A stretch of DNA of 64,000 bases. Origin: Capsulimonas corticalis (GTDB lineage: Bacteria; Armatimonadota; Armatimonadia; Armatimonadales; Capsulimonadaceae). Each line of letters starts with the position of its first letter. Position 1 is the stretch's first letter. The position numbers and the translations under genes are program-made. This document shows, in pieces, positions 9,883-62,723 of this stretch. The notes beneath the pieces were generated by a model. It had not been told where the DNA came from. It ran no database searches and saw only the letters and a list, made by a program, of their open reading frames with translations. The stretch is taken from the NCBI RefSeq assembly GCF_003574315.2, contig NZ_AP025739.1, forward strand, positions 1,240,001-1,304,000, in the 5' to 3' direction.

Positions 9883-10410
9883 ATGCGGTATCGAACACCG
9901 GAGCCGGGGCGGCTCCTCTCGTATTTGACACTGGCGGCGCTGCCGATACTGGCCCTGAGTCTGCTTTCATTCCATCGCCAGCTCCATTCCTCCACGCCGC
10001 TGCGCGGCGCAAACGCGCGATCGGGCCCGGCCAGCACGCTTGTGACCGGCGCATCCGTCGCGGCCCCGATTGTCGTCCTTGGGAATGGGCCGGGCGCATC
10101 CCACGTCCGCGCTCCCGGCGACGTCCAGATCGTGGACTCGCATGGCCGCGTCGTACTTTGCGCGAAGGAATCGAGACCCGGCCTCTTGTCAGCCGAGCGC
10201 GGGATATCGCTGATGAACACCGGGGCAGCCATTACGGTCGCCGGCCATTCGTTTCCGCTCCTCGTCGTGGGACTGTCGCGCGGCGCGGCGCTGTTCCCAG
10301 GCAAGGAGTATGCGCTGGAGCAGATGACCCGAAGCGCGCTTCAGCCGGGATACACGCTTCTCGAAATCGAAGCGCCCTCCGCGCCGCCCACCCCGCCGAA
10401 GCGCCGATAG
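9883..10410 (+). CDS. Hypothetical membrane-anchored protein
   Basis: 175 residues; GAGG lies 8 bases before the ATG. One hydrophobic segment (residues about 11-29, LLSYLTLAALPILALSLLSF) makes it a probable N-terminally anchored or secreted protein. The rest is a small beta-rich domain (DVQIVDSHGRVVLCA, ITVAGHSFPLLVVGL) ending in a Pro-rich tail. I do not recognise a family. The 174-base gap to smc carries divergent starts; the gene runs convergently into the AraC regulator with a 27-base gap. Base composition and the in-frame signal segment support it as a real gene, but the function is unknown. Confidence 0.55.
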   Translation: MRYRTPEPGRLLSYLTLAALPILALSLLSFHRQLHSSTPLRGANARSGPASTLVTGASVAAPIVVLGNGPGASHVRAPGDVQIVDSHGRVVLCAKESRPGLLSAERGISLMNTGAAITVAGHSFPLLVVGLSRGAALFPGKEYALEQMTRSALQPGYTLLEIEAPSAPPTPPKRR

Positions 10411-38274: not shown

Positions 38275-38357
38275 AGTTGTAATTATCACACTCTCTGATA
38301 GCATAGTTTTCGGTATTGTACTCGCCCTGATGAGTTTTCCGTGAGTTTTCCAAAAAA

Positions 38358-38412
38358 CGTAAACGTTTACGGTAATTGCAATAATTATACAGGAAAGCCG
38401 CTGTCCTGTCAA
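38358..38412 (-). promoter_or_regulatory. nagB promoter with LacI-type operator
   Basis: Reading on the minus strand: TTGACA (38407-38412), 17-base spacer, TATAAT (38384-38389), and 12 bases downstream the perfect palindrome CGTAAACGTTTACG (38358-38371). The operator would overlap the transcription start region, as expected for repression. Confidence 0.85.
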
Positions 38413-40451: not shown

Positions 40452-42483
40452 TCAGCTCCACCATTTGATGACATAGCACTTTGGGCACGGTGAACGTCAC
40501 ACCGCCGCCCGCCGTCTCTTCGATTTCCAGCGTCTCACCAGTGGGGGCGAGGCGCGCGGACCGGATCTTGACGCGCGGAATATTCACGCGGCAGCGCACA
40601 TCGTAAAGCGGCGTCAGGTCTTCAATGACCTCGACGGGCTTGGCGTCCTCGCCTTCGGCGGCGCCGCGCAGAACCGGCGTCGCGAAGAGCAGATGCAGCA
40701 CATAGCGCTCTTCCTCGGGCTGAACCATCAGGGACAGCCTTGCCGTCGACGGCAGGATCGCTTCAGCGATGGGATCGGAAATGAGCGTCCGGATGGCGTC
40801 CACGACGAAGTCGCGGTAGACCGGCTGGCCGTAGCGGCGATACCGCGTGAAGATATCGTGCGCGAAGTAGACCGCCTCGCCGTCGCCGACAGCGCCGGGA
40901 TACGGCCCGACGCCGTTGTCCGGCGTATGGAAATGGCTGCAAAAGTGATCGAAGGCGCGGTTGAAGTACGGCTCCGCGCGCAGCGCTAAGACTTGCAGTC
41001 CGGAATCCAGCTCCGGAACGACATCCCACGCGCCGCCGTGGATCACCAGCGGGCCACGCGCCGGCGATGTCGGGAGGGCGGCGGTCGGAATCAGATAATC
41101 GGGGTTCCAGGGGCTGCGGCCGGCCACCGTCAGGCGGTCCGCAAGCCCCGTCCATACAGCAAAACCCGTCTGGTCCGGCGTCAGACCGCTGCGTCCGCTG
41201 AGCAGCAGCTTGCCGCCGGCGCCGACAAACGCCTCCAGCCGGCGCGCGAACGCCTGGTGCGCAGCGTTTTCACCGGAAAGCACGATCTCGTCGGGCAGAA
41301 TGACCAGTTTGTACGGCGCCAGGTCCCGGTCCAGATCGATGACATCGAACAGCAGATGCGCCTCCAGCAGCATCCGCGCGGCGCCCTCCTCAGCGTGCGC
41401 GTGATCCCAGGCGCCGCGCGCCTGGTCCGTGCGCAGCGCTTCCGGCGAGACGAGCGCGATTTCGGAGACGGCGCGCGCGCCGCTCACCCACGGTTCTTTG
41501 GTTTCCACCTCGGTGTAGGCGGCACCGACAAGGCGATAGGTGTCCGGATTCATCTCCCCACTGGGATGCAGCTGATCGCCGATGCTGCACTTGGCGCCGA
41601 ACGCGAGCATCGCGGCGCATTCATAGCGGAGGGCGTCGGCGCGCTTGAAGCCGCCAAACTCGCCCCAGGTGGTGTGGAACTTGCCCGTCATCCCCAGAAA
41701 ATCATAGCCCGTAGTCGCGGCGTACTTCGCCGAAATGGGGAAGTGATCGTACCCCCACCCGCCCGTCGGCAGCGATTCCAGCTCCAGGTGCGAATTCCAC
41801 TGGATCGCCGCCTTGCCGCCTTTGGGGATATGGCCGCTGTTGTGAAAGACGCGATGGTTGGGATCCTTGCTGCGGGCGGCCGCCGTCGTGCGCGCATAGT
41901 AGTTCTGAAGCACGCGCGCCGCATATTCCTCCGCTTGCGCATCGTCCAGCGGGTTGACGCCCTCGGCGAGCATTCCCTTCATGCACCACGAGCAGTAACA
42001 TCGGCGCGCGCCGATGATGTCCAGAAAGATCCCGTCGCCATCGAACTTCTCCACCACTTCTTCGATCTGCGCGCACAGATAATCCAGATACGGCGTGTTG
42101 AAGCAGAGCATTTTGAAGCCCGGCGAGAGAGGCTCAAAAACCCGGCCGTCGCGGTCCTTGTAACCCCAGTCGGGATGCGCGAAGATCGACGCTTCGTCGA
42201 GACCGGCGGAGATGTAGATCGGCGTGCGAACATCGATCTCGCGGCAGGCGTCGAGTTGCGCGGGCAGCAGGTCCTCGGCCATGCCGGGATGGCGCACGCC
42301 GACATTCGTCTCGTGATAGCTCATCCCATGATGGCACTTGGCGAAGAGCGTGACGGAATCGACATGCCCCTCCCGCAGCATTTCCTGAAACCGCGCCCGC
42401 TCAAAGCGCGCGCCGACGCCGGCGATCTTTTCGCTCGTATGAAAGTCCAGATGGATCTGCCGAAACCGCAGTTCTTCCGTCAT
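40444..42483 (-). CDS. GH151-like / GH42-related protein, candidate alpha-L-fucosidase
   Basis: 679 residues, no signal peptide, so cytoplasmic. The start (RFRQIHLDFHTSEKIAGVGA) and layout fit the GH151 alpha-L-fucosidase type as I recall it: TIM barrel (about 1-370), a beta-galactosidase-trimerisation/class-I-amidotransferase-like domain (about 375-570, LVILPDEIVLSGENAAHQAF, GGKLLLSGRSG), and a small C-terminal beta domain. DGIFLDIIGARRCYCSWCM contains a Cys-rich loop. The family could instead be an uncharacterised GH42-like clade. It lies beside three GH29 fucosidases. An operator lies 44 bases upstream. Confidence 0.75.
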   Translation of the reverse strand: MTEELRFRQIHLDFHTSEKIAGVGARFERARFQEMLREGHVDSVTLFAKCHHGMSYHETNVGVRHPGMAEDLLPAQLDACREIDVRTPIYISAGLDEASIFAHPDWGYKDRDGRVFEPLSPGFKMLCFNTPYLDYLCAQIEEVVEKFDGDGIFLDIIGARRCYCSWCMKGMLAEGVNPLDDAQAEEYAARVLQNYYARTTAAARSKDPNHRVFHNSGHIPKGGKAAIQWNSHLELESLPTGGWGYDHFPISAKYAATTGYDFLGMTGKFHTTWGEFGGFKRADALRYECAAMLAFGAKCSIGDQLHPSGEMNPDTYRLVGAAYTEVETKEPWVSGARAVSEIALVSPEALRTDQARGAWDHAHAEEGAARMLLEAHLLFDVIDLDRDLAPYKLVILPDEIVLSGENAAHQAFARRLEAFVGAGGKLLLSGRSGLTPDQTGFAVWTGLADRLTVAGRSPWNPDYLIPTAALPTSPARGPLVIHGGAWDVVPELDSGLQVLALRAEPYFNRAFDHFCSHFHTPDNGVGPYPGAVGDGEAVYFAHDIFTRYRRYGQPVYRDFVVDAIRTLISDPIAEAILPSTARLSLMVQPEEERYVLHLLFATPVLRGAAEGEDAKPVEVIEDLTPLYDVRCRVNIPRVKIRSARLAPTGETLEIEETAGGGVTFTVPKVLCHQMVELSE

Positions 42484-42526
42484 ATCGCTCTCCCGTGAGG
42501 TCTCAGTTCGATCGCGCAGCTATTTC

Positions 42527-42540
42527 CGTAAACGTTTACG
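42527..42540. promoter_or_regulatory. LacI-type operator upstream of the GH151-like gene
   Basis: Perfect 14-bp palindrome CGTAAACGTTTACG, ending 43 bases before the GH151-like start codon. I see no convincing -35/-10 pair close by on the minus strand, so it may act as a roadblock to read-through or with a weak promoter. Confidence 0.8.
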
Positions 42541-42617
42541 TATTAAAATAAGTCGCTGCGCGCGAAATTCCTTCTTTACGCCTGGTTTCCAGACAATTCT
42601 CTTGGATGGCTTCCGTT

Positions 42618-45439: not shown

Positions 45440-47251
45440 TCACTCCTCTACCCGCGTCAGCGTCAGGCGACGCAAGTTCAGTATTCCGAGCGCGGGCATC
45501 GTCTTTGGGCTCATGCGGAGGGTGGCGTGGTCGCCGCTGAGCGTCAAGGTCCCCTCCAGGTTCACGGTCGCAAAGGTGTCCCAGTTCGCGGTTACGCCGG
45601 CGGCGCCGGTGATTTTGTTGTCGGGCTGGCCGTCGATGGCGATCTCGTACTGACCGCCGGTCGTGTTGGCGGGGCAGGCGAACTCCAGGGTGACTTTGTA
45701 CTTGCCGGCCTGGGCGCGGGGGACGGCGAGGGTCCAGCTTACGTTGTCGGTCAGATTGGTCCAGTAGCCGACGTCGTCGATATTGTCCGCGCTTTCGAGA
45801 CGGGCGGTGGTTCCGTGGATCTCGGCGTCGGTGGCCGTCAGGGTGTAGGCTCCATCCTTTTGGGGCTGGATCATCCGCGAGAAGGGATCGATGACGGGCT
45901 TACCCTTCAAATGCAGAGCGATGACCGTGGAGCTGGGATCGAGCCTGGACGGTTTGGCAATGTGGAGCACGCCATCGGCGTCTTTGGACACGGCGAGGCG
46001 CTCGCGGCCGTTCAGGGCGACGGCTTCGCGCACCGGGGTCAATAAGTGCGGCAGGGTCAATCCCGCATCCGGCCACTGATAGACCTGGAGATATAGCGTA
46101 TCGCCCTTTTGGGTGCAGCGGCCTTCATAGGGGAGCGAGGCGAAGGGGTTCTTCGTCGTTCCATAGATACTGTCGCCGTTCACATCCATCCAGGCGCCGA
46201 TCTCCTGAAGCCGGCTGACTTCCTCTGCGGGAATCGTACCGCTGGAGTCGGGGCCGACATTGAGCAGCAGGTTGCCGCCCTTGCCGACCACATCGCACAG
46301 GGTGCGGATCAGGGTCTGCGAGGATTTGAAGTGAGGATCGTTCCAGGTGTAGCCCCAGTGGCCGTTGATCGTCAGACAGGTCTCCCAGAGACGGCCGCCC
46401 GGCAGGCCCTTGTCCGGAATGACGTTCTCGGGCGTGTCGTAGTCTTCCGGAAGATTGATCCGGTCGTTGACCATCGCGTTGGGCTGGATCGACCGGATCA
46501 TCTTCACGACTTCGAGGGCGTGCTCTTCCTCGGCGCTGTGGTCGAGATGACCGTCGAACCAGATCCCGCCGATCGGGCCGTAGTTGGTCAGCAGCTCGCG
46601 GACCTGGCCCTTGAGATATTCGATATAGCGGTCGAGATCGGCGCCGTCGGTCGGTCGCTTGTCCCAGGCGGCGCGCGGCAGATAGTCGTACCGATCCCAA
46701 TCCTTCACCGAATAGTAAAAGCAGAGCCGAATTCCCTGCTTTTTGCATTCGGCGGCCAGATCCTTCATCGGGTCGTGATGGTAAGGCGTCGCCTGGACGA
46801 TATTATAGTTCGAGAGCTTGCTGTCGAACATGTCGAAGCCATCGTGATGCTTCGCGGTGATGGTGATGTACTTCATCCCCGCCGCCTTGGCGATCGACAC
46901 CCACTCACGGGCGCTGAACTTTGTCGGGTTGAACTTGGCGGCGAACTTCTCGTACTCCGCCGGCTGCATGCCCATGTTCGCCAGATACCACTCGCCGGAC
47001 GCGTCGGCGTTACTCAGATCGCTGTTGGGAACCGAGTAGACGCCCCAGTGAACGAACATACCGAACTTACCGTCGCGCCACCACCGGGTGCGCTTCGCGA
47101 ACTGCGCCTGAGTCTCGCCCGTCTCGGTGTTGACGCGAAGCTGCGGAGCCGAGGACGCGGAAGAATTCTGAGCCGGCTCCGCATGAGCGGCGCCGGACAG
47201 CAGGACACAAGACAGCGACATCAGCCGCGAGATTCGAGAATTGCGCTTCAT
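45440..47251 (-). CDS. Secreted alpha-L-fucosidase, GH29, with C-terminal beta-sandwich
   Basis: 603 residues with a Sec signal peptide (cleavage after about GAAHA). GH29 barrel: KFGMFVHWGVYSVPNSDLSN, YITITAKHHDGFDMFDS, IGGIWFDGHLDH with nucleophile D233, VGKGGNLLLNVGPDSSG. Residues about 464-603 are a beta-sandwich (DVGYWTNLTDNVSWTLAVPR, ending LGILNLRRLTLTRVEE) that recurs in the GH29 at 47300 and the GH18 at 56299. A -10 TATAAT and a near-perfect operator lie just upstream. Acts outside the cytoplasm on fucosylated glycans. Confidence 0.94.
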   Translation of the reverse strand: MKRNSRISRLMSLSCVLLSGAAHAEPAQNSSASSAPQLRVNTETGETQAQFAKRTRWWRDGKFGMFVHWGVYSVPNSDLSNADASGEWYLANMGMQPAEYEKFAAKFNPTKFSAREWVSIAKAAGMKYITITAKHHDGFDMFDSKLSNYNIVQATPYHHDPMKDLAAECKKQGIRLCFYYSVKDWDRYDYLPRAAWDKRPTDGADLDRYIEYLKGQVRELLTNYGPIGGIWFDGHLDHSAEEEHALEVVKMIRSIQPNAMVNDRINLPEDYDTPENVIPDKGLPGGRLWETCLTINGHWGYTWNDPHFKSSQTLIRTLCDVVGKGGNLLLNVGPDSSGTIPAEEVSRLQEIGAWMDVNGDSIYGTTKNPFASLPYEGRCTQKGDTLYLQVYQWPDAGLTLPHLLTPVREAVALNGRERLAVSKDADGVLHIAKPSRLDPSSTVIALHLKGKPVIDPFSRMIQPQKDGAYTLTATDAEIHGTTARLESADNIDDVGYWTNLTDNVSWTLAVPRAQAGKYKVTLEFACPANTTGGQYEIAIDGQPDNKITGAAGVTANWDTFATVNLEGTLTLSGDHATLRMSPKTMPALGILNLRRLTLTRVEE

Positions 47252-47263
47252 GAGAGCTCTTTC

Positions 47264-47299
47264 CGTAAACGTTTCCGAAATTCGATATTTCCTATTATA
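47264..47299 (-). promoter_or_regulatory. -10 element and LacI-type operator of GH29 gene at 45440
   Basis: Minus-strand TATAAT (47294-47299), overlapping the end of the upstream GH29 region, and 16 bases further CGTAAACGTTTCCG (47264-47277), one base off the palindrome. The -35 region is poor. The operator ends 12 bases before the start codon. Confidence 0.65.
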
Positions 47300-50140: not shown

Positions 50141-50263
50141 GTGGAAGAGAGGGCTTCCCGCTATATGCGAATCCATCGCAAATGTGTCCGATATCGGCGC
50201 CCGCGCCGAAATTGAGAAGGAAACACGACGCCTACCAGGTAAATAAACCGGGTGAGGACACCC

Positions 50264-51085
50264 ATGAACATTGTCACGCCCCTCAACAGCATACAGATCC
50301 AGCTGATCCACGCCAATTGCCTTTTGATCACGCCGGATTGGTGGATCATGCGGGATATTCAGGGTCCGTTCTGGCGCTTTTACATGCAGTGGGAAGCGGG
50401 GGTGACGGTGTCCATCGATGGGCGCGCGACGGCGCTTGAGGCGGAGCGCTTCTATATCATCCCCGGGGGCGCGAGGTTCAGCGCGCGGACGGACTGGCCC
50501 ATGCAGCAGCTATTTATCCACTTCGATGTCATTGGATTGTATGGCCTGAAGATGCGCGAGCTCTTCGCGGATCTGATCTGTCTGCCGGCAGCGTTCCCGC
50601 TCAAAGAAATCGCCCGGGAGATCTCGCGGCGGCTTCAAGCGGGAGATCCTATCGATGCGCTGATGCAGACGCAGATCCATGCGATGCTTTACACGGGTCT
50701 AGCCCAGTACCTCGCCTCCCTGCCGCAGGACCGGCGCGACGAATTGGGCCGGCATACGCTGGCGCTGGCGCCGCTGACGCCGGCGCTCAATTATATCGAC
50801 GCCCATTTGACGGAGCCGCTGTCGAACTCCGCTCTCGCCGAGCTGTGCTTCATGAGCGAGGGGCATTTTATTCGGCGATTCCGCGCGGGCGTCGGCCAAA
50901 CGCCGGTCCAATATATTCTGGACCGGCGCGCCCAGCAGGCGGCGCGACTCCTGCGCATGACGGATTGGAGCATCGAGCGCATCGCCGAAGAAACCGGCTT
51001 CGGAAGCCGTTACTACTTCCACCGCGTCTTCTCCCGCCTGATCGGGGTGGCCCCTTCGGCCTACCGGCGCTCTTCGGAACGGTGA
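50264..51085 (+). CDS. AraC-family regulator
   Basis: 273 residues from the ATG at 50264, preceded by GTGAGGA; a GTG four codons upstream is also in frame. N-terminal cupin-like sensor (residues about 15-110, ERFYIIPGGARFSARTDWPM) and C-terminal helix-turn-helix pair (about 175-270, LSNSALAELCFMSEGHFIRR; IERIAEETGFGSRYYFHRVF). It lies immediately upstream of, and on the same strand as, the GH2 gene (41-base gap) and divergent from the prepilin-like gene. It may regulate either, in addition to the operator-based control. Confidence 0.9.
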   Translation: MNIVTPLNSIQIQLIHANCLLITPDWWIMRDIQGPFWRFYMQWEAGVTVSIDGRATALEAERFYIIPGGARFSARTDWPMQQLFIHFDVIGLYGLKMRELFADLICLPAAFPLKEIAREISRRLQAGDPIDALMQTQIHAMLYTGLAQYLASLPQDRRDELGRHTLALAPLTPALNYIDAHLTEPLSNSALAELCFMSEGHFIRRFRAGVGQTPVQYILDRRAQQAARLLRMTDWSIERIAEETGFGSRYYFHRVFSRLIGVAPSAYRRSSER

Positions 51086-51091
51086 ATTTTC

Positions 51092-51147
51092 TTGACATCC
51101 ATCCCCGGTGAGGTTATAATGGCCGCATGAACCGTAAACGATTACGG
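51092..51147 (+). promoter_or_regulatory. GH2 promoter with operator inside the coding start
   Basis: TTGACA (51092-51097), 17-base spacer, TATAAT (51115-51120). The expected start of transcription coincides with the ATG at 51127. The palindrome CCGTAAACGATTACGG (51132-51147) begins 11 bases after the -10 and encodes codons 2-7. Confidence 0.85.
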
Positions 51148-54099
51148 GAACGGAATGCGTTCTCACTTTGCGTCTTTCTCGTCCCGCTTTGCGCCGCCGC
51201 AAGCCCCGCGCGCGCCAATGAGCTCTGGCCGCGCCCCACGATCGCGCCGATCCCCATTTCGGAGCCTGGCGTGCGTGCGCCGAAGGTCCTGCTGAATGGC
51301 GATTGGAAGTTCTCGGCGGCGCCGCCGAGCGACTTCTGGAACGCCGACGCTTCCGGCTGGGCGAACGCCGACGCTTCCGGCTGGGCGAACGCCGCCGTGC
51401 CGGGCGATCTCTCGGTGCAGGGGCTCATTGATGACCGGGCGACGAACGGCAAGGAGCTGGCGTATCGCAAAGTCGTGACGGTTCCGGCGGATTTCGCGGG
51501 CAGGAAGATCCTGCTGCGCATCGAAGGCGGATACGATTACGCGCGCATTTGGGTCAACGGCCGCTTCGTGCGCGACCACTATGGCGCGTTCACGACCTGG
51601 GATTCGGACATCACGCCCTATGTGACGCCGGGGCAGCCCGCGCGGATCACGGTCGGGCTGACGGCCGGCCCCGAGGAGACGCTGGGGATCGAGTACCGGC
51701 ACACGCGCGGCCTGGTGCGCGACGTCAGCCTGCTCGCCGCTCCCAAAGACCATCTGACGCGGCTTCAGTGCGACACGGATTTCGACGACGCCTATCAAAA
51801 CGCGACGCTGAAGGTCGATGCGGGGATGGAGTTCGGCGCGGCGCCGGGCGCGACCGTACGCCTCTCCCTCACCGATCCACGCGGCCGCAAGGTCACGATC
51901 GGACCGTCGAAGATCGTGCTGTCGCCCCGCGCGCCCGAACAATCGATCCGTATTCCCACCACGTCGCCCCAAAAGTGGGACTCGGAGCATCCCAATCTGT
52001 ATCGCCTGACGGCGCAGGTCAAGATCGATGGGCGCGTTGTGGAGACGATCACAAAATCCATCGGCTTCCGCAAGATCGCCTGGCGCGGAAACCAGATGTT
52101 CGTGAACGGACAGCCGGTCAAGCTGCATGGAGTCAACTGGCATCAGGACCTGGCGAACGCCGGCGAGATCGCGAACGCGGCGAACGACAAGGCGTCGCTG
52201 GACATGATCAAGAGCGCCAATGTCAACTTCATCCGGACATCGCACTACCCGCAAACCGAGTTCGTGCTCGATTACTGCGACAAGATCGGCCTGTATGTCG
52301 AGGAGGAGACCTCAATCTTCTTCATCACCGAACAGGGCGTGGCGATGAACTCGGAGAGCAACCCGGACTTCCAGCCCAAGTATATGAACCAGTTCGCGGA
52401 GATGATCGAGCGCGACCGCAGTCATCCGAGCATCGTGATGTGGTCCCTGGGCAACGAAAGCCGCTGGGGCTCGAATATGCAGCATCAGTTCGACTATGTG
52501 AAGCTCGAAGATCCCACACGTCCGACGATCTGGAGCTACCCGGACGATCACGACGCCGGGACGACCCCGCGCTTCGATATCCGCAGCATCCACTACCCCG
52601 GCCAGGGCTGGGCGTTCGGGCAGGCCGCGCAGCCCGAGTTGTGCGATGAGTACTCCCACATCCTCGTCACTTCCAGCGCCGCCGAGCTGCGCCGCGACGC
52701 CGGCGCGCGCGATTTCTACGGCGAAGAGTTAAAGTTCTGGTGGGAGAAGATGTACGCCGCCCCCGGCAACCTCGGCGGCGCTATCTGGTACGCGCAGGAT
52801 ACGACGTTCGCGCGCGCCGATGGGACCTTCAACCCCTCGCTCACCGCCGAATGGGGCGTCATCGATGTCTGGAACCGGCCCAAGCCCGAATACTGGAACG
52901 TCAAAAAAGAATATTCGCCCGTCGTGATCGACGGCAACGCCAAGTCCGTGGCGAACCCCGGCGCCGGAAAGCCGCTCGCGCTCCCCGTCCAGAACCGATA
53001 TAACCATTCGAACTTGAACGAAGTCACGTTCGCATGGAAAGCCGGCGACGGATCGGGCAAAATGCGCGGCCCGAATGTCGCCCCCGGCGGCCAGATCGGC
53101 GTGATTGAGATCCCGGCGCGGGACTGGAAGAACGGCGATATCGTCAATATCAAGGTCTTTCGGGACAAAGAATATGTTGATGAATACAACTTCACCCTCG
53201 GCATCCCCCACCCGATCTTCCCGGCGGCTCAGGGCCCCGCGCCTACGGTGACGACGGATGCGAAGACGATCCAAATCACCGGCCGCGACTTCTCACTGAG
53301 CTTCGACCAATCGACCGGATCGCTCACCCACGGCAAGTTTCGCGGCGCCGAGATCATTACCGGCGGTCCCTATCTAAACCTCGGCCTTCCGGAGCTGAAG
53401 CCGTGGACGCTGACCTCTCTGGACTCGCGGGTTTCGGGAGACCTGACCCACATCGATATCTCCGGAAAGTACGGCGACCTGCCGGTGCGCTTCGATGTTG
53501 CGGTGGACGCCGCCGGTCTCATCGCCACAACCTACACGATCGATGGAGCGCCGCCGGCCGAGGCGACGGAAGTCGGCGTCGCCTACACGGTCTCGCGCAA
53601 CGCCGACCGGCTGACCTATCGCCGCAGCGGAACGTGGTCGGCGTACCCCGCAGACTACATCGCCGGCAGCGAAGGCGTCTCCCTCAAGACAAAACCTCAC
53701 GGGGTCGATACCTGGCGGGTGAAACCATCGTGGCCGTGGGCGCTGGACGAAAAAGACTTCATCAACGACGGCGCCGCCAAAGCCTCCGCCGGCCGTGGAA
53801 CCAACGCCTTCCGAAGCTCCAAGACCAACGTCTACCACGCCTCCCTCGTCCTCGCCGGCTCAAACCTGCGATTACGGATGGAGGGCGACGGAACCGGCTC
53901 CGCGCACCCACTGATCGAACCCAACGGCGACATCCGGTTCAACATGAACAACCAGTGGTCGTTCAAGCTCTCCGGAGGCTCAATGGCGACGCAGATCCGG
54001 CGGGACGTGACGGCGGGAGCGGGATACACGAACACGGTGCGGATGCGGCTGACGGATGGGGATGATTATGGGATGGGGTATGAGGCGATTGTAAAGTAA
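51127..54099 (+). CDS. Secreted GH2 glycosidase
   Basis: 990 residues. Signal peptide: basic MNRKRLRER, hydrophobic SLCVFLVPLCAAA, cleavage near ASPARA. GH2 domains: jelly roll (residues about 50-200), immunoglobulin-like (about 215-325), TIM barrel (about 325-620). The acid/base is E444 in SLGNES and the nucleophile E508 in CDEYSH; NFIRTSHYPQ is the usual barrel motif. The C-terminal region resembles the large beta-galactosidase domains. Residues 72-87 contain an exact tandem duplication of eight codons. No better in-frame start exists downstream, supporting a leaderless mRNA. Likely removes beta-galactose, glucuronate or related sugars. Confidence 0.92.
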   Translation: MNRKRLRERNAFSLCVFLVPLCAAASPARANELWPRPTIAPIPISEPGVRAPKVLLNGDWKFSAAPPSDFWNADASGWANADASGWANAAVPGDLSVQGLIDDRATNGKELAYRKVVTVPADFAGRKILLRIEGGYDYARIWVNGRFVRDHYGAFTTWDSDITPYVTPGQPARITVGLTAGPEETLGIEYRHTRGLVRDVSLLAAPKDHLTRLQCDTDFDDAYQNATLKVDAGMEFGAAPGATVRLSLTDPRGRKVTIGPSKIVLSPRAPEQSIRIPTTSPQKWDSEHPNLYRLTAQVKIDGRVVETITKSIGFRKIAWRGNQMFVNGQPVKLHGVNWHQDLANAGEIANAANDKASLDMIKSANVNFIRTSHYPQTEFVLDYCDKIGLYVEEETSIFFITEQGVAMNSESNPDFQPKYMNQFAEMIERDRSHPSIVMWSLGNESRWGSNMQHQFDYVKLEDPTRPTIWSYPDDHDAGTTPRFDIRSIHYPGQGWAFGQAAQPELCDEYSHILVTSSAAELRRDAGARDFYGEELKFWWEKMYAAPGNLGGAIWYAQDTTFARADGTFNPSLTAEWGVIDVWNRPKPEYWNVKKEYSPVVIDGNAKSVANPGAGKPLALPVQNRYNHSNLNEVTFAWKAGDGSGKMRGPNVAPGGQIGVIEIPARDWKNGDIVNIKVFRDKEYVDEYNFTLGIPHPIFPAAQGPAPTVTTDAKTIQITGRDFSLSFDQSTGSLTHGKFRGAEIITGGPYLNLGLPELKPWTLTSLDSRVSGDLTHIDISGKYGDLPVRFDVAVDAAGLIATTYTIDGAPPAEATEVGVAYTVSRNADRLTYRRSGTWSAYPADYIAGSEGVSLKTKPHGVDTWRVKPSWPWALDEKDFINDGAAKASAGRGTNAFRSSKTNVYHASLVLAGSNLRLRMEGDGTGSAHPLIEPNGDIRFNMNNQWSFKLSGGSMATQIRRDVTAGAGYTNTVRMRLTDGDDYGMGYEAIVK
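51340..51387 (+). repeat. 24-bp exact tandem duplication in the GH2 gene
   Basis: Two back-to-back identical 24-bp units (51340-51363 and 51364-51387), adding the eight residues NADASGWA in frame, plus the first six bases of a third. Probably recent replication slippage. Confidence 0.9.
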
Positions 54100-57747: not shown

Positions 57748-57840
57748 CGGAACCTCGTGTCTCGTCTGTCACTTCGGCTGAGAGATACAGGAAACGTCAC
57801 CGGAAACAAAATACGTAAACGTTTACGATTTCTGTTTTCG

Positions 57841-57869: not shown

Positions 57870-58147
57870 GAGGATTGGCGTAAAATCCTTCGCGAAAGTC
57901 CCGCGATGATTGCGGCCGAAAAGCAAGCGGCCGTCGTCTCGTCTTGAAACTCGCTTTCCGTAAACGATTACGGAGTCAAAATTAACGCTATTATACGACG
58001 AGAACGTATCCCTGTCAATGCGCAATTTGGCGGCGGGCGGCGCGGGTCTGAATTGGCGGGAAGAGATTCTTTTTGCTTGACACGCCATCCAGATCGTGAT
58101 ATCATCCCAGCATACCGTAATCGTTTACGAAAAGTTGCGATTGCCTA

Positions 58148-58176: not shown

Positions 58177-58278
58177 CATTTCCGAAGCTAACCGTAAACG
58201 ATTACGGAACCCTCCGGCGATGAAGCCCTTCCTTGAGTTACGCTCCGCACTCCCTGCGTCTTTATGAAGGAGAACACA

Positions 58279-59097
58279 ATGAACCATCGCCTCCGCCGAA
58301 CTTCTGCGTTCACTTTGATCGAATTGCTCGTTGTGATCGCCATCATTGCGATTCTCGCCGCGATTCTCTTCCCCGTCTTCGCCCAGGCCCGTGAAAAAGC
58401 GCGCCAGACGGCGTGCCTTTCCAATATGCGCCAGGTAGGATTAGGCGTGACACAGTACGTGCAGGACAATGACGAAGCCTACCCTCTGGTGACTTACTCC
58501 AACGACTCCCAAACACGGTTGATGAACGGAGTCGATCCTTATATCAAAAGCCAGGATGTTTGGTACTGTCCGAATTACTTCGGCGTGGGGGCGACCAAGG
58601 ATCCGAACGGTCATCCGGTTTATGAGAATTATGCAGGGACATGGTACGCCAACGCCGGAGATGCGTATCAGGGCAAGCCGCTCGCCGATGTCTGGGGTGG
58701 AAGCGGCAGCTGGTATACCGGGCATCGCCAGCCGGGCTACATGATCTTCATGGCGAAAGCGCCGTTTGGCGCCAATGGTTACATCAGCGATCCTTCGGCG
58801 CCTGCGCCGCTTGAGGGCTATTACTTAAGCCCACTTCATGCTTCCGATGAAGCGACCGATTACGGCAAAGGGCCGAATGGAGGAGGAGGCTACTGGTGGT
58901 CAACTGCCCCGTCAGAGCAGAATATTATCATGACGGACTGGTTTGGAACGTCGTGGCCCTATAGTTGGCTGATCCAGATGCACAACACCGGCGGCAAGAC
59001 GCCCGGCTACGGTACGCCGATCAAAGGCACGAATGCTTTGTTCATGGACGGTCACGTGAAGCTGACTCATCCATTCAACACATCCACCACCAACTGA
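58279..59097 (+). CDS. Prepilin-type N-terminal domain protein (DUF1559)
   Basis: 272 residues. The ATG at 58279 is chosen because AAGGAG lies six bases before it; an ATG at 58264 is in frame. Short basic leader [10 protein letters not shown], then [45 protein letters not shown]. The C-terminal part contains [17 protein letters not shown], the family's DGH motif. Many aromatic and Gly residues in the body ([14 protein letters not shown]) suit a surface-exposed binding or scaffold protein. Predicted processing by prepilin peptidase. Controlled by two operators of the glycosidase regulon, so its product is probably made with the glycan-degrading enzymes. Confidence 0.92.
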
Positions 59098-59404: not shown

Positions 59405-59450
59405 TTGACAGACGGAATAAAAGACGTTATAATTCCGTAAACGCTTACGG
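59405..59450 (+). promoter_or_regulatory. Promoter and operator of the isomerase-dehydrogenase operon
   Basis: TTGACA (59405-59410), 17-base spacer, TATAAT (59428-59433), and the palindrome CCGTAAACGCTTACGG (59435-59450) starting one base after the -10. The start codon follows at 59463, leaving only a short leader. Confidence 0.88.
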
Positions 59451-61563: not shown

Positions 61564-62577
61564 TCAGCGAACCGCGAGCGCTGCGGCCGTCGGCGGGCCG
61601 CAGGATTTGCGGATCACCAGATGAGCGCCGCAGGACTCGATGCTTGGGGCCGCTTTCTGCTCGATCATCTCCAGCAGGGCGCGGATCGCCGCCTTGGCGA
61701 CTTGCGGGATATCGATCGCGACGGTTGTCAGCGGCGGATTGACCAGGGTGGCGATCTCGACGTTATCGTGGCCGATCACCGAGACGTCGCCGGGGATGGA
61801 AAGACCGAGCTGCTGCGCGGCCTCGATCGCGCCGAACGCCAGAACGTCGGTGCGGGCGAAGATCGCCGTGGGCGGGTTAGCCATCTGTAGGAGCCGGGTA
61901 GCCGCTTCGGATCCCTCCTGACGCGTGACGCCCGCTTCCACGGCCAGGGCCGGATCCCAGATCAGCCCCGCCTCCGCCATGAGCTCCGGCAGCCTGACGC
62001 GGACATGCTGGCCGGGAAAGCCGGAGCCGATATAGCCGACGCGGCGATGGCCGAGGTCGGCGAGGTACTGCAGGGCTTCGCGGACGCCTGGCTGAGTATC
62101 GACACAGACATGGGACGCATTCGGAAAGTCCGATGGCTCGGGGCCGTCGATCAGCACGGCGGGCGTGCGGCCGCGCCGGGTCAGCGCATTGAAATCGTCG
62201 GGAGAGACTTCGGGCGCGCCGATCACGACAAGGCCGTCGACCGAGTACATCTCGGTCTCCATGCCTTCGCGGCGGCGGCCAAGGCGAAGCAGCAAGTTAT
62301 AGTTGTGGGCGTGCGTTTCTTCTTCCAGAGCGCGCGCCATCTCGATCAGATAGCGGTCCGAGAGCACATCGGCGTTATAGGGGCACTCCAGGCGGATCAA
62401 GAAAGTCCGCCCCGTCACCAGATGCCGCGCATTGGCGTTGCGCGCAAATCCGAGTTCCTGCGCTTTTTCCAGGACCATCTGGCGCGTTTTCGGACTGACA
62501 TCCGGCCGATCGTTGAGCGCACGGGACACCGTCCCGATGCTAAGATTGAGGCACTTTGCGAACTCGACAATGTTCAT
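61564..62577 (-). CDS. LacI-family transcriptional regulator, candidate regulon repressor
   Basis: 337 residues from the ATG at 62575-62577; a GTG 13 codons upstream is in frame. The helix-turn-helix with hinge is at residues about 1-55 (VEFAKCLNLSIGTVSRALND, RPDVSPKTRQMVLEKAQELG). A periplasmic-binding-protein-like sugar domain follows (GRTPAVLIDGPEPSDFPNAS, VGYIGSGFPGQHVRVRLPEL, IFARTDVLAFGAIEAAQQLG). It sits next to the operator-controlled isomerase operon and is the only LacI protein in the window. The SIGTVSRALN helix is of the class that reads GTAAACGTTTAC-like palindromes. No operator is seen at its own promoter, so it may not autoregulate. Confidence 0.93.
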   Translation of the reverse strand: MNIVEFAKCLNLSIGTVSRALNDRPDVSPKTRQMVLEKAQELGFARNANARHLVTGRTFLIRLECPYNADVLSDRYLIEMARALEEETHAHNYNLLLRLGRRREGMETEMYSVDGLVVIGAPEVSPDDFNALTRRGRTPAVLIDGPEPSDFPNASHVCVDTQPGVREALQYLADLGHRRVGYIGSGFPGQHVRVRLPELMAEAGLIWDPALAVEAGVTRQEGSEAATRLLQMANPPTAIFARTDVLAFGAIEAAQQLGLSIPGDVSVIGHDNVEIATLVNPPLTTVAIDIPQVAKAAIRALLEMIEQKAAPSIESCGAHLVIRKSCGPPTAAALAVR

Positions 62578-62723
62578 AATGACGCTTTTACCGAATATCT
62601 CGGCGCGCTCCCACACCTGTGAAAGTCCATTTCAAGGACGGGGATGTCAGGAAAACGTGGTTCCAAGCAGACGAGCGCGTCGCGAAGAGAAACAATTCCG
62701 GCTAGTCCGCCGGCGCAGCTTTA

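Follow-up and report, generated by a model that had tools for sequence, protein, structure and literature searches.

The window analysed here is a stretch of 64,000 nucleotides from the Capsulimonas corticalis genome, and all coordinates refer to it. Its forward strand carries a gene for a GH2 glycosidase, preceded by a gene for an AraC-family regulator on the same strand. The AraC gene ends at 51085, which leaves 41 nt before the GH2 start codon. The features surrounding this start are as follows:

50252..51085, + strand: AraC-family regulator gene, co-directional with GH2, ending 6 nt 5' of the -35 hexamer (domain search)
51092..51097, + strand: perfect -35 hexamer, TTGACA (sequence and promoter scan)
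51109..51111, + strand: in-frame TGA, which bars an earlier start codon (sequence)
51110..51113, + strand: GAGG within the promoter spacer, a possible weak Shine-Dalgarno sequence for a read-through transcript only (sequence)
51115..51120, + strand: perfect -10 hexamer, TATAAT, after a 17-nt spacer (sequence and promoter scan)
51126..51128, + strand: predicted transcription start, at or adjoining the A of ATG 51127 (placed from the 6-nt spacing between -10 and start codon and from the genome-wide 5-7 nt peak described below)
51127..51216, + strand: predicted signal peptide MNRKRLRERNAFSLCVFLVPLCAAASPARA (translation; extent and cleavage judged by eye)
51127..54099, + strand: GH2 glycosidase, beta-galactosidase-like, 990 amino acids (Pfam PF02836, PF00703 and PF02837)
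51132..51147, no strand assigned: LacI-type operator CCGTAAACGATTACGG, a predicted repressor site centred near +13 (sequence, genome copies and promoter offsets)

The first GH2 domain of the protein starts at residue 56, and its NCBIfam matches fall below the cut-offs. By eye, the N-terminus divides into a basic n-region (MNRKRLRERN), a hydrophobic core (AFSLCVFLVPLCAAA) and a run of small residues before the cleavage site (SPARA). Further into the coding sequence, at 51339-51394, lies a perfect 24-bp tandem repeat of 2.3 copies that encodes NADASGWANADASGWAN; the residues it adds are absent from homologues.

The promoter reads as the earlier note had claimed, with TTGACA-N17-TATAAT ending six bases (GGCCGC) before the ATG at 51127-51129. 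It scored 12/12 in the promoter scan and is the single promoter-like site between 50000 and 51300. The palindrome CCGTAAACGATTACGG follows 11 nt past the -10 hexamer, so that it spans roughly +6 to +21, just past the predicted transcription start.

The palindrome is not a chance occurrence. Six exact copies are present in the 7.65 Mb genome, and its core, with at most one mismatch, occurs nine times in the window, where shuffled sequences led to an expectation of 0.12. It recurs at several promoters and is even, with a central CG, a form of palindrome characteristic of LacI-family sites (PMC4052901). We defined close copies as those with at most two mismatches to the symmetric consensus (n = 15) and strong promoters as those with at most three mismatches of 12. 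Twelve of the 15 close copies, GH2 included, sit 1-16 nt past the -10 of a strong promoter. The other three (L010, 42526 and 47263) have no promoter at this threshold: copy 47263 follows a TATAAT with a poor -35, while L010 and 42526 lack a clear promoter. This placement supports the proposal that the palindrome acts as an operator for a predicted repressor. The remaining copies described in the window, none assigned to a strand, and the candidate owner are as follows:

38357..38372: regulon operator, 11 nt past the -10 of a minus-strand promoter
42526..42541: regulon operator, upstream of a minus-strand gene whose start is at 42483 and whose leader contains GGGAG
47263..47278: weaker operator copy, 15 nt past TATAAT, upstream of a leadered minus-strand gene starting at 47251
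57813..57828: regulon operator, 12 nt past a -10 on the minus strand
57958..57973: regulon operator, 16 nt past a -10 on the minus strand
58115..58130: regulon operator, 9 nt past a -10 on the plus strand
58192..58207: regulon operator, 15 nt past a -10 on the plus strand
59435..59450: regulon operator, 1 nt past a -10 on the plus strand, with the gene start 29 nt past that -10
61564..62616, - strand: LacI-family regulator gene, candidate owner of the operator (domain search and genome LacI HTH matches)

The distance from this regulator gene to the closest operator is about 2.1 kb, and the densest operator cluster is nearby; the genome holds 56 LacI HTH matches in all. Regulon operators also occur upstream of pilin-like genes (58264-59097, and L009, L016 and L017 near position 10000), and the regulon seems to pair pilin-like proteins with glycosidases. 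A second family of palindromes, CCTAACCGGTTAGG-like, was observed on the minus strand (L020), 9-14 nt past perfect promoters, and probably represents another LacI-type regulon. In genome G001 of the same family, CCGTAACCGGTTACGG stands directly past -10-like boxes at two loci (L126 and L128), a variation on the promoter-operator arrangement described here.

The GH2 gene is distinguished by the position of its start codon. Where other regulon members have a strong promoter, their called starts lie at least 28 nt past the -10. The -10 box of GH2 lies 6 nt from its ATG, within the 5-8 nt range used here for leaderless genes; a -10 motif right before the start codon, together with the lack of a Shine-Dalgarno sequence, is the standard signature of such genes (PMC3160421). 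For the predicted transcript, no usable Shine-Dalgarno sequence was found at 51121-51126, a result that depends on the predicted start.

For comparison, a simple ad hoc caller based on codon usage was applied to a 1.66 Mb part of the genome, where it identified 1117 genes. Hexamers resembling a -10 box peak 5, 6 and 7 nt before gene starts (11, 18 and 9 genes, against 3, 6 and 5 in a scrambled control), become fewer beyond this peak, and rise again near 30 nt and farther. When a strong promoter lies 4-8 nt from the start, 21 of 22 genes have no Shine-Dalgarno sequence, compared with 33 of 81 when it lies at least 25 nt away, where the other 48 have one (Fisher p ~2e-6). The single Shine-Dalgarno-bearing gene among the 22 is GH2 itself, through the GAGG upstream of its predicted +1. 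Across the whole genome, 14 perfect promoters are followed by an ATG 3-9 nt downstream, and eight of these promoters open frames of more than 120 codons; at spacings of 5-7 nt the proportion is seven of eight. These statistics indicate that leaderless transcription is an ordinary gene class in Capsulimonas corticalis, and the suggestion that the GH2 mRNA is leaderless fits both the position of its -10 box and the genome-wide pattern of Shine-Dalgarno usage. Of the 134 strong promoters no more than 60 nt from a start, 22 (16%) belong to leaderless-type genes, so finding one among about a dozen regulon members is unsurprising. Elsewhere in the genome, at L141 (4332613 onward), a LacI-family regulator gene that starts 5 nt past a perfect promoter looks leaderless too.

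An alternative is that GH2 is expressed mainly by co-transcription with the AraC gene, with the GAGG as a distant ribosome-binding site and the operator as an internal roadblock or a minor element. The co-directional AraC gene and the short intergenic gap are compatible with this arrangement, and the GAGG is indeed present about 13 bases before the ATG, as the earlier note had pointed out. Read-through transcripts from the AraC gene could make use of it, which counts against the leaderless reading. However, because it lies inside the spacer between -35 and -10, the GAGG is upstream of the predicted +1, and a 13-nt spacing is long for a Shine-Dalgarno sequence. A perfect promoter, with no other promoter-like site nearby, separates the two genes, and the GH2 operator holds the same position as the initiation-blocking operators of the regulon. 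We therefore regard predominant co-transcription as unlikely.

Under the leaderless reading, the location of the operator within the coding sequence follows from promoter geometry. Since regulon operators mostly sit 1-16 nt past the -10, any leaderless member is forced to carry its operator on its first codons; with transcription starting 5-7 nt past the -10 and no leader, the GH2 operator therefore occupies codons 2-7. As had been proposed, it covers Asn-Arg-Lys-Arg-Leu-Arg (N-R-K-R-L-R), beginning at the final base of codon 2 and extending through codon 7, and in frame it reads AA[C CGT AAA CGA TTA CGG]. CG-centred palindromes were searched for in the first codons of the other leaderless-type genes of the 1.66 Mb sample, and none was found besides that of GH2.

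The same stretch of DNA would then serve as repressor site and as part of the export signal, and this overlap could be regarded as a dual-use device under selection, with DNA binding and the export signal either coupled in function or shaped by co-evolution. Of the five basic residues in the n-region, four are encoded by operator codons, and the rare codons TTA (2% of Leu codons genome-wide) and CGA (9% of Arg codons) suggest that the sequence is held by something other than codon preference. Both codons are, however, commoner at gene starts anyway, where they reach 6.9% and 17.5%, respectively. The reading frames over the operator are also informative: that of GH2 gives R-K-R-L-R, the second meets a stop and the third gives V-N-D-Y. 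One of the two open frames is thus basic, so that, given an open frame, a basic peptide is a one-in-two outcome.

Comparison with related sequences likewise argues against a selected device. The closest homologues, at 38-44% identity, have basic N-termini, no palindrome and mostly leaders resembling those with a Shine-Dalgarno sequence. Acidobacterial homologues begin MMDRRRFVK, MNRRKFVG and MNRRTFVR, and a clostridial one begins MVRKL. Within the family, the best matches are only about 33% identical, so a close-range comparison of the start is not possible there. The expectation that relatives would keep both the palindrome and the basic residues is thus borne out for the residues alone, and the overlap of operator and n-region appears local to this gene rather than a conserved device. 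A search of 201 genomes of the phylum for a -10 box, ATG and palindrome in this arrangement found no other case at a gene start. The sole further match, in G135, was rejected, since its ATG is followed directly by TAA and is no gene start. Of the earlier proposal, the overlap itself stands, while the idea of a designed or conserved device is not supported; co-selection of the two functions seems very unlikely. Most simply, the overlap with the signal peptide is a tolerated coincidence, a consequence of promoter geometry. A literature search with partial coverage returned nothing relevant on operators that form the n-region of a signal peptide in a leaderless gene.

The palindrome would also fold in the mRNA, into a hairpin of 6 bp that lies 5 nt into the message (-6.4 kcal/mol). 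Among the 22 leaderless-type starts, that of GH2 is the most structured, although 16% of all called genes show equal or stronger folding over their first 30 nt. The hairpin is not ideal for leaderless initiation and counts against our preferred explanation. It could instead be imagined that the 16 bp act three times, as a repressor site in DNA, an export signal in protein and an mRNA hairpin that tunes initiation or 5' stability, in which case repression, translation and secretion could not evolve independently; we consider this a long shot.

Finally, translation most likely begins at ATG 51127. With the in-frame TGA at 51109, the next in-frame ATG, GTG or TTG only at GTG 51271, in agreement with the earlier statement that no alternative start codon follows shortly downstream, and a conserved WPRP motif before that GTG, this start appears secure. 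The notion that GTG 51271 is the true start, which would make 51127-51270 an untranslated leader and the enzyme cytoplasmic, draws on a GGAG well placed 6 nt upstream (51261-51264) and on a first GH2 domain that begins after this codon, but it is scarcely credible and was rejected, as WPRPxIxPxP (residues 34-42) precedes the GTG and is kept in three acidobacterial and one clostridial homologues, and 51127-51270 maintains an open frame with typical signal-peptide composition.

Taken together, the evidence favors lac-O1-like repression of a leaderless gene for a secreted GH2 glycosidase, to which we assign a probability of roughly three in four on the basis of sequence. In this model, a sigma-70-type promoter would place the transcription start on the A of ATG 51127 or next to it, yielding a leaderless mRNA that encodes the putatively secreted enzyme. 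A LacI-family repressor, possibly the product of 61564..62616, would bind the palindrome and, in the manner of the lac repressor at lac O1, stop promoter opening or escape; an inducer, probably a sugar, would then release it. The frame in which the operator falls, R-K-R-L-R, is compatible with the n-region of a signal peptide.

Several elements of this layout have counterparts in other bacteria. In Corynebacterium glutamicum, operators of DtxR overlap the start codons of cg0160, cg2311 and cg3404 (PMC1382209, Table 1), and RACE identified leaderless transcripts for other genes of the DtxR regulon, such as cg0527 (PMC1382209). The likeness to GH2 is that repressor sites overlap a start codon of translation and that the genome produces leaderless transcripts. 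DtxR, however, is an iron regulator, whereas the GH2 site is LacI-type, and the passages on these sites make no claim that they encode the n-region of a signal peptide (PMC1382209). GH2 shares with previously described leaderless genes (PMC3160421), including those of Deinococcus-Thermus (PMC12340547), a -10 motif that adjoins the start codon and the lack of a Shine-Dalgarno sequence, but differs from them in its perfect TTGACA -35 and in the LacI-type operator in its first codons. DdrO sites, for their part, may overlap or adjoin the -10 motif (PMC12340547). LacI-family sites inside reading frames are also known, as in lacZ and purB, and account for less than 1% of predicted sites (PMC4052901); unlike the GH2 site, these do not fall on the opening codons of a leaderless gene, and that of lacZ is deep within the gene (PMC4052901).

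These findings make GH2 a clear illustration of regulatory DNA being forced into coding sequence when a gene is leaderless: if a repressor acts just past the -10 and the mRNA lacks a leader, the opening codons have to double as operator. They also offer sequence-based evidence that an armatimonad has a class of leaderless genes; no study of such genes in Armatimonadota came up in our literature search. A further parallel is offered by lac O1 of Escherichia coli, where a LacI-family palindrome follows closely on the transcription start, with its centre near +11. The GH2 palindrome is likewise located just past +1, centred near +13. The two differ in what the operator overlies: lacZ has a leader with a Shine-Dalgarno sequence, so that O1 falls mainly within its 5' untranslated region, whereas the GH2 operator lies in the first codons of the gene.
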